NCBI RefSeq assembly: GCF_900182655.1
Contig: NZ_FXTC01000004.1
Location: 1-64,000 of the forward strand
Reading direction: 5' to 3'
Length of the DNA: 64,000 nt
DNA from: Chryseobacterium rhizoplanae
GTDB taxonomy: Bacteria; Bacteroidota; Bacteroidia; Flavobacteriales; Weeksellaceae
Below the pieces are notes generated by a model. It was not told the DNA's origin, searched no databases, and saw nothing but the letters and a program-made list of their open reading frames with translations. The translations under genes were made by a program, and so were the position numbers. Of this stretch, positions 13,170-14,980 are shown piece by piece (positions within the stretch are counted from its first letter, which is position 1; every line of letters begins with the position of its first letter).

Positions 13170-13952
13170 CTATTTGCGGCGGCGACCGGAAACCTTTTTA
13201 TCAAGATCCCTGATGTCCTGTCTCAGCTCACGGAACATTTCTTTAAAATTATAGCTTTCATAGTCACCAGGCTCAAAATCTTCCGGAAAAATTCCTGAAG
13301 CATACTGCCAGATTTCTACAACTTCTTCAAACGGAATCTCATAAGGCTCATAAAAAGAATTATCAGCGCTTACACAGATTGCGTTTTCTTTTCTTTCCTT
13401 AAAACGTTTATAGGTAATCCCATCATTCAATGTAACGAAAACATAGGTTTTTCCCTGTTTCAAATCATTAATTCCTTCCACATATTTTCCTACGATATAG
13501 GAACCACTTCTGAATGGAGGCATAGAATCTCCATCCGCAGGGAATGCTCTGTATTTTCCATTCGTAAGAAAAGGAAGAGCAATACGCTGAAGACTTTCAA
13601 TATAATCTACATCACTGTAACCTTCCAGATATCCCATAGAAGCTTTTTGAGGGATAATCTCTATAGTATCATTCCCATGTGTGTCTACCGCCACCGGAAG
13701 CACAATTCTGTTGTCCGGCAGTTTCAGCATATCATCCATAGGATACTTCTGAATATCTACTGACAGCATAAGATCAATGCTCACATGAAAATATTTGGAG
13801 ATTTTTACAAGCAGTTCAATAGGAGGTTCAGATATTCCGTTCTCATATTTTGAATAACGGACTCTGGAGATCATCAGTTCATCAGCTACATTTTGTTGGG
13901 AGAGCTTTCTCCTGGCTCTTAAGAAGCGTATATTATTTGAAAAAATTGACAT
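13170..13952 (-). CDS. XRE-type repressor with S24 (LexA-like) peptidase domain
   Basis: About 260 residues. An N-terminal helix-turn-helix (LRARRKLSQQNVADELMISRVRYSKYENG) precedes a C-terminal S24 domain with the Ser in PADGDSMPP and a Lys in ITYKRFKE, the Ser-Lys dyad of LexA/CI-like proteins. This family represses its targets and, in many members, self-cleaves on DNA damage. The frame extends upstream to 14075, but ATG 13952 is preferred: the extension lacks HTH homology and a good promoter (TTG-N19-TATTTTTG at 13999-13970) ends 18 bases before 13952. It has no phage genes nearby, so the target is unknown. Confidence 0.85.
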   Translation of the reverse strand: MSIFSNNIRFLRARRKLSQQNVADELMISRVRYSKYENGISEPPIELLVKISKYFHVSIDLMLSVDIQKYPMDDMLKLPDNRIVLPVAVDTHGNDTIEIIPQKASMGYLEGYSDVDYIESLQRIALPFLTNGKYRAFPADGDSMPPFRSGSYIVGKYVEGINDLKQGKTYVFVTLNDGITYKRFKERKENAICVSADNSFYEPYEIPFEEVVEIWQYASGIFPEDFEPGDYESYNFKEMFRELRQDIRDLDKKVSGRRRK

Positions 13953-13969
13953 TGATAAAAGTATGTAAG

Positions 13970-13999
13970 CAAAAATACAAAATTTGTATGCGTTACCAA
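13970..13999 (-). promoter_or_regulatory. Promoter of the LexA-like repressor gene
   Basis: On the minus strand TATTTTTG (13977-13970) matches the Bacteroidota -7 element TAnnTTTG, with TTG (13999-13997) exactly 19 bases upstream. It gives a very short leader before ATG 13952 and lies inside the upstream extension of the open frame, deciding the start. Confidence 0.7.
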
Positions 14000-14187
14000 T
14001 CACCCAACCGGGTTTTACTACAAGATATAAGAAAATTTGGCTAATCATTTCTTCATTTTTAATAAAACGAGACAATTTTCACGGTTGAATATTCAATTTT
14101 TGCATGCTAAAAAATAGATTTCTGATTAAATATACAAGGCTTCACACAGGTTAAATAATAATCATTAATAAATAGAATTTAGTACAG

Positions 14188-14228
14188 AAATAATAACTCT
14201 AAATTTCGCGAATTGAGTTATTATTTTT
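14188..14228. terminator. Long AT-rich hairpin upstream of the bacteriocin-like gene
   Basis: AAATAATAACTC (14188-14199) pairs perfectly with GAGTTATTATTT (14215-14226), with further AATT pairing inside a TCGCG-containing loop. T-rich sequence follows on the plus strand. It sits in the 449-base AT-rich gap between the repressor and the peptide gene, in which I see no other gene. It could end a short upstream transcript or structure a long leader. Confidence 0.45.
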
Positions 14229-14401
14229 AACATTTAGTAAATCAATCACATATAAGTGAAAATCATATTTTTATTAAAACACAGATATATTAATGAAATA
14301 TTAAATAATAAAAACATATAATTAATTTATTGAAAATAATTTGCAATTGTAATATTATTATTCATATATTCGTGATGTAATAATCATATAAAATTATAGT
14401 T

Positions 14402-14686
14402 ATGAAAAACTTAAAAAAATTAGACAGAAACGAATTAAAAGCTATTTCAGGTAACGGATTACTAGATCCAATCGGCGGACTTCTAGGTGGACTAGGAGGT
14501 GTTGTAGGTGGAGTAGTAGGCGGAGTAGGTACTATCGTTGGTGGCGTAGTTACTGGCGTAGGATCTACAGTAGGTGGTGTAGTTGGCGGTGTAAGCACTG
14601 TTGTAACTAACGCTTTATGCCAGACACAATGTGTTGTTAATGGTGTAATCCACATCAAATTACTTGAGTGCGGATCAACTTGCTAG
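14402..14686 (+). CDS. Bacteriocin-like secreted peptide with glycine zipper and CX3C pairs
   Basis: A 94-residue precursor. Residues 1-18 (MKNLKKLDRNELKAISGN) match the leader shared by Chryseobacterium bacteriocin-like peptides, which normally ends in a double glycine before cleavage by a peptidase-containing ABC transporter; here it ends GNG. The core (about 20-70) is almost wholly Gly, Val, Leu and Thr in GGVVGG/GGVGT repeats, a glycine zipper suited to membrane insertion. The tail has C73-X3-C77 and C90-X3-C94, likely two disulfides of a helical hairpin. No modification enzyme, transporter or immunity gene is adjacent. A strong terminator follows. Antibacterial activity is inferred. Confidence 0.8.
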   Translation: MKNLKKLDRNELKAISGNGLLDPIGGLLGGLGGVVGGVVGGVGTIVGGVVTGVGSTVGGVVGGVSTVVTNALCQTQCVVNGVIHIKLLECGSTC

Positions 14687-14714
14687 TCAGTAAGCATTAC
14701 ATGTAAAAAATCAG

Positions 14715-14742
14715 ACCGCTCTTTTCAGAGCGGTTTTCTTTT
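14715..14742 (+). terminator. Rho-independent terminator of the peptide gene
   Basis: ACCGCTC (14715-14721) pairs with GAGCGGT (14728-14734) around TTTTCA, followed by TTTCTTTT. It lies 29 bases after the peptide stop codon. Confidence 0.85.
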
Positions 14743-14759
14743 ATATATGTCCAGTATAT

Positions 14760-14980
14760 TTGATTTTAATAAAGCTTCTCAAGATTTCAAAAGTAAGCAT
14801 ATTTGGAACTTGCCACCAGACTAAAATCGAGTATTCTCTTATAAGAATTAATGTGAAAAGACTTATTTTTTATCTAGTATGTTCAAAACCTAAAATAAGA
14901 GAAGCAAAATATGATGAGCAAAGAAAAAGTTTAAAGAATTAAAAAAAGAACTTGCTCCGATTATTAACAACAATAACTAA
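14760..14980 (+). pseudogene. Possible frameshifted small gene
   Basis: One frame runs from 14760 and ends at 14942 after ...AKYDEQRKSLKN; the neighbouring frame continues in the same style (ELKKELAPIINNNN) from 14936 to a stop at 14978-14980. The two pieces join at an A-rich run, as expected for a single-base indel in a small basic protein gene. No homologue is recognised. The remaining sequence to 15198 shows no gene. Confidence 0.25.

Follow-up and report, generated by a model that had tools for sequence, protein, structure and literature searches.

A conserved glycine-zipper peptide of Chryseobacterium with a bacteriocin-like leader that appears to avoid normal cleavage

We analysed a window of 64,000 nucleotides of Chryseobacterium rhizoplanae DNA and found in it the gene of a glycine-zipper peptide precursor of 94 residues plus stop codon (14402..14686, + strand; defined by ORF translation, genus relatives and dN/dS). 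In our best reading, to which we give about an even chance, the product is a putative disulfide-stapled, membrane-active, bacteriocin-like peptide that is exported in trans through a shared exporter. The precursor joins a leader of the leader_Chryseo family, a glycine-zipper core and a four-cysteine tail.

The translation of this ORF has the 94 residues claimed in the initial annotation, and its conservation indicates that it is a genuine gene, spread genus-wide. A homology search with the window peptide found relatives at E ≤0.001 in 105 of 173 genus genomes (one genome per species); the match ran from the leader to the cysteine tail in 102 of the 105 positive genomes and was partial in G063, G119 and G165. 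All 30 of the 30 named records that matched the peptide as query were from Chryseobacterium. Among the matches listed, 10 genomes, the window's own included, encode the identical protein, and 8 distinct coding sequences for that protein differ by 2 to 16 bases. Across 76 equal-length coding sequences dN/dS was 0.174, with values of 0.092 for the leader, 0.241 for the core and 0.117 for the tail; judged by these ratios, all three parts are under purifying selection. A profile of 80 distinct proteins, run against 320 genomes of the family with at most 16 candidates scored per genome, matched 109 (107 from the genus and 2 others) and found no full-length relative in 147 genomes of 32 other genera, the 2 weak matches there being leader-side. 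A lack of homologues with a conserved leader and cysteines had been named as grounds for abandoning the first proposal; both features were present in 80/80 distinct proteins, which had been chosen by leader and cysteine pattern, and the attempt at refutation failed. Eighteen of 125 loci yielded no such protein and were left out of the alignment: paralogues, fragments, other leader peptides and one locus (L076) whose match begins at residue 5. Loci were de-duplicated over ±600 bases and alignments by identical protein; loci found through named records may duplicate genomes of the 173-genome panel. Carriage on plasmids or phages was rejected, as neither collection held a match to the peptide at E 1e-5. 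One genome (G140) encodes the zipper peptide four times in tandem, the copies diverging (L114:3001-4267), and has a fifth, nearly zipper-free copy at L115.

The core (residues 19–72; 14456..14617, + strand) had been described as Gly/Val-rich with GxxxG spacing, and this spacing is above chance: we counted 12 GxxxG pairs against 6.1 ± 1.7 expected from 20,000 composition shuffles of the core residues (P = 0.00035). Between P23 and H84 there is no proline and no charged residue. Core length ranges from 21 to 57 residues across the 80 distinct proteins, and one of the 80 has at most two GxxxG pairs, its zipper being nearly absent; the zipper is therefore a module of variable length. A structure model of the whole peptide placed a helix at residues 42–68 and strands at 72–79 and 82–89, with low confidence (pLDDT 53.6). 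The best profile match to a solved structure, FtbJ (E 0.00047), fell in a glycine-rich-looking stretch; we put it down to composition and did not count FtbJ as a relative. Alpha-synuclein chains matched the family profile at E 6–8.5, which is chance level. A sister set of five loci (L064, L065, L118, L123 and L125) shares the leader, a GLLDPV start and CX3C and CX4C pairs, with no zipper.

The zipper core could also serve a non-toxic purpose. Exported by the same route as proposed for a bacteriocin-like peptide, the product might self-assemble through its zipper into aggregates on the producer's own surface or in its biofilm, and high conservation across species (the identical protein in 10 genomes among the matches listed), low dN/dS and the failure to find an immunity gene are all compatible with such a surface or matrix role. 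The leader family, however, carries a bacteriocin-like annotation, and the rest of its members are small peptides rich in cysteine; moreover, since one of the 80 members is almost without a zipper, aggregation is not a fixed feature of the family. We regard this role as fairly unlikely.

The leader (residues 1–18; 14402..14455, + strand) was recognized by the NCBIfam model leader_Chryseo (NF047798) at 33.2 bits against a cut-off of 23.5, in agreement with the bacteriocin-type leader first proposed, and the model matched 80/80 distinct family proteins at E up to 1. These proteins never vary at N3, K5, K6, L7, R9, I15 or G17, nor at the four cysteines. According to the available text of PMC6363468, C39 leaders typically finish in G-G, G-A or G-S and are recognized through L-12, E-8 and L-7; the window leader has the consensus residues at all of these recognition positions (L7 = −12, E11 = −8, L12 = −7) and a hydrophobic residue at −4 (I15). 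Its end had been given as MKNLKKLDRNELKAISGN-G, and the residues are as described, but the leader terminates in G-N and has no double glycine. Instead of G, A or S, the window leader has N at −1, encoded by codon 18 (AAC, Asn; 14453..14455, + strand), the residue that would be P1 in a double-Gly site. The residue 17–18 pairs of the 80 distinct proteins are GN (50), GE (15), GD (14) and GG (1), and N, E or D in place of the G/A/S of C39 leaders, in 79/80 proteins, is a new feature. By comparison, GG, GA or GS ends 27 of the 31 leader peptides in the window's own genome, the exceptions besides the window peptide being one GN, one GK and one ending VAG. On a 95-row DNA tree computed with codon 18 excluded, position 18 required at least 13 changes, one of them into G/A/S. 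By the genetic code, each N, D or E codon observed is a single transition away from a Ser or Gly codon, so avoidance of G/A/S at this position is likely to be under selection. Because position 18 is N, E or D and not G/A/S in 79/80 proteins, normal C39 cutting of the zipper precursor is doubtful, and the leader seems to avoid it.

Taken further, these patterns might mean that selection keeps the C39 recognition residues and bars G/A/S, maintaining a standing class of leader-docking, cleavage-avoiding peptides that leave, or block, the shared exporter leader-on. Such a peptide would act by contact as a zipper toxin bound to the surface, or would slow the export of the genome's 30 other leader peptides. 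We think this generalization unlikely to hold. A related proposal for the window peptide itself, that it docks by its leader, cannot be cut by the C39 protease and remains leader-on, anchored to the cell or braking the shared exporter, draws on the retention of L-12, E-8, L-7 and I-4, on the avoidance of G/A/S at −1 in 79/80 proteins, with a single one of at least 13 tree changes at that site leading into G/A/S, and on the GG, GA or GS ends of 27/31 own-genome leader peptides. Against it, the C39 proteases of the genus may accept other residues, as the GN, GK and VAG ends of other own-genome leaders suggest, and core and tail are constrained too, which would be superfluous in a simple brake. 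It strikes us as distinctly improbable.

The initial annotation had also noted that no maturation genes lie nearby and that export must depend on a system elsewhere. Both points agree with what we found: the window belongs to contig C4, which has no C39 transporter, and the three C39 transporters of the genome lie on contigs C1, C2 and C14. On C14 a candidate exporter operon (L158:6274-11771) contains a C39 transporter, a VKOR–Thioredoxin_4 fusion, a leader_Chryseo peptide and an HlyD adaptor. The genome has 31 leader_Chryseo matches above cut-off, and many Chryseobacterium genomes hold dozens of orphan leader peptides. Of the 173 genomes, 159 had leader peptides together with the VKOR fusion and 10 had neither; 3 genomes had the fusion alone (G030, a weak match, G089 and G137) and 1 had leaders alone (G069) (Fisher P 6e-13, kinship ignored). 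The fusion occurred in 105/105 zipper-family-positive genomes versus 57/68 negatives (P 2e-5, again with kinship ignored), and in at least 20 other genomes, counted by eye, a leader match lay within ~3 kb of the VKOR gene. The C14 transporter was sought in 28 of the 173 genomes. It was present at ≥88% identity in 14/14 chosen positive genomes and at 87–90% in G030, G089 and G137; among 11 VKOR-less genomes, 10 had no copy at ≥50% identity, and G004 retained one at 90% with no leader peptide. G069 departs from the co-occurrence in having four leader_Chryseo matches and no VKOR fusion, and it gave no match to the C14 transporter covering the C39 domain at E 1e-60. From this distribution, a shared exporter encoded elsewhere in the genome probably exports the zipper peptide, and the C14 C39 transporter/VKOR-thioredoxin/HlyD operon is likely to be that exporter.

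Other small peptides of the genome form clusters. Contig C2 has five in tandem (L161:15563-16807) that end in CC and have a second leader type, KRKL..ELKEINGG, ~20 kb from a pair of radical-SAM and C39 transporter genes (L160:4794-8316). On contig C3 several cysteine-rich leader_Chryseo peptides are clustered between housekeeping-like genes (L162:5485-6824), with no transporter genes seen adjoining.

The ~130 bases before the zipper peptide gene (14272..14401, + strand) are conserved, with a mean pairwise identity of 0.758 over 28 loci (the window gene and 27 loci picked by eye as having no adjacent regulator), compared with 0.407 farther upstream, 0.355 downstream and 0.463 in shuffled sequence. 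Two blocks stand out, at −116 (14285-14306, + strand) and −45 (14365-14392, + strand), the second with a box, TATATTCG, that we take to resemble the Bacteroidota −7 element. The second block scored 55.3 at the window gene and at best −14.8 upstream of the 30 other own-genome leader peptides; 2 of these 30 upstream regions beat their own 50 shuffles, yet stayed far below the window gene. It occurs once in the genome at ≤3 mismatches, and the first element twice within its allowed mismatches. A regulon common to all leader peptides was rejected on the negative scores of the second block upstream of the 30 others, and the upstream elements look private to the zipper peptide gene. No Rfam element was found in 13900-14900. 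The terminator reported after the gene corresponds to a hairpin that resembles an intrinsic terminator and leads into a T run (14713..14736, + strand), a perfect-stem version of which occurs in 80/96 loci. In a survey of the neighbourhood at 94 loci that differ from one another over ±600 bases, one neighbour alone recurred widely, a divergent XRE/S24-peptidase-like regulator (13170..13952, − strand in the window; Pfam HTH_3 and Peptidase_S24), whose cluster touches 53/94 loci and which immediately adjoins the peptide gene in 50/94 (by our count). No immunity or maturation gene recurred among neighbours of ≥80 aa, nor did any immunity candidate among small ORFs of 40–130 aa, the commonest of which fall inside the coordinates of the regulator gene. 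On this arrangement the peptide gene is an orphan cassette with its own conserved upstream region and terminator. The regulator, found at about half of the loci, could mean that the peptide is a signal perceived by its own species or by related ones, and C39 transporters also export quorum-signalling peptides, as the accessible part of PMC6363468 describes. With the remaining loci lacking the regulator, no other neighbour widely recurrent, and a long hydrophobic zipper in the peptide, we find signalling very improbable.

The tail (residues 73–94; 14618..14683, + strand) contains the cysteine pairs C73-X3-C77 and C90-X3-C94, as first read, and is predicted to form a beta-hairpin with an N80-G81 turn. 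The cysteine spacing is 3-12-3 in 69 of the 80 distinct proteins, 3-12-4 in 10 and 3-13-4 in 1. Modelled in isolation (34 residues, 65 sequences), the tail gave a beta-hairpin with strands at 12–19 and 22–29 (pLDDT 79.1; block pLDDT 82–91 across the last 24 residues), the same hairpin as in the full-length model. Given the two-residue turn, we infer that C73 and C77 would share one face. The cysteines had been likened to those of alpha-hairpinins, in which two helices are stapled by cysteines. The CX3C...CX3C pattern fits 69/80 proteins, but the analogy is not supported: the last pair is CX4C in 11/80, and the predicted tail has two strands rather than two helices. That the ORF is a chance one, or an alpha-hairpinin-like mini-protein, is hardly credible despite the CX3C-X12-CX3C of the window copy, considering genus-wide conservation, a dN/dS of 0.17, the beta-hairpin model and the CX4C pairs. 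Calling the cysteines unexpected on a bacteriocin-type precursor was too strong, as nearly all own-genome leader_Chryseo peptides read are cysteine-rich.

The peptide resembles several known groups. With the leader_Chryseo peptides (NF047798, 'bacteriocin-like protein'; a model that covers the 18-residue leader only) it shares a leader above cut-off, an orphan gene and core cysteines, and it differs in the long glycine zipper before the cysteines and in a residue 18 that is not Gly/Ala/Ser. We file it as a variant within this group; the suggestion of a possible new peptide family stands in that the combined zipper and cysteine core has no curated model of its own. Membership of the E492 microcins, which likewise have a Gly-rich core and a leader, was rejected at 13.5 bits against the NF051486 cut-off of 50, although 54/80 members match that model weakly at E up to 1. 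The Caulobacter glycine-zipper peptides CdzC and CdzD, which kill by contact (PMC5380434, available text), are alike in size, uninterrupted hydrophobic zipper, leader and, as proposed for the window peptide, type I export. As that text defines Cdz-like peptides, the window peptide falls in the 60–151-residue range with an uninterrupted zipper (94 aa, no proline or charge between 23 and 84). It is set apart by being a single peptide, by a leader end without G[G/A/S], by the lack of type I secretion genes within 10 kb (a test covering C39-domain transporters, which lie only on C1, C2 and C14), by the lack of an adjacent immunity gene, no recurrent neighbour fitting across 94 loci, and by its four-cysteine hairpin tail. 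The Cdz survey kept matches only where a type I secretion system lay no more than 10 kb away, and neither 'Chryseobacterium' nor 'Flavobacteri' occurs in the text of PMC5380434. Bacteroidetocins combine a C39 transporter, a thiol oxidoreductase, four cysteines and an absent immunity gene (PMC6671954, available text), and they share with the window peptide these features, a double-Gly-type leader and a host in the Bacteroidota. Compared by that description, which leaves zippers unmentioned, they differ in having 42-aa mature peptides cut after GG and a four-gene cluster; in our genome transporter and oxidoreductase are both on another contig. As these defining features were tested and found lacking, the zipper peptide belongs to neither Cdz nor Bacteroidetocins; by analogy, it may act like both.

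Our preferred reading, a trans-exported bacteriocin-like peptide, would work as follows. The private promoter region, itself conserved, would switch the gene on, and the leader would dock in the C39 domain of the ABC transporter encoded in the C14 operon described above. The VKOR-thioredoxin protein would help to oxidize the four invariant cysteines, stapling the beta-hairpin tail. Outside the cell, the zipper segment could pack as an oligomerizing membrane helix or an aggregate and disturb the membranes of competitor bacteria, the hairpin finding or holding the target. Supporting this reading are the leader family, the co-occurrence of leaders with VKOR, the above-chance zipper spacing, purifying selection in all parts, the leader_Chryseo peptide within the exporter operon of the window's own genome, the tandem diverging copies in G140, and the parallels with Bacteroidetocins and Cdz peptides as far as the available texts describe these. 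It is weakened by N/E/D at position 18, by the want of a recurrent immunity candidate, by the exceptions G069 and G004, and by the low-confidence full-length model (pLDDT 53.6).

Our literature search found no paper on leader_Chryseo or on a Chryseobacterium bacteriocin-like protein. Co-occurrence now links the orphan leader peptides to a single exporter that comes with an enzyme for making disulfides, and the C14 operon is a candidate for the shared export and oxidation of those of the genus; this link makes leader-peptide export directly testable. Among these peptides, the zipper peptide is the leader_Chryseo member whose design suggests membrane activity, with a promoter region of its own and an apparently cleavage-avoiding leader.
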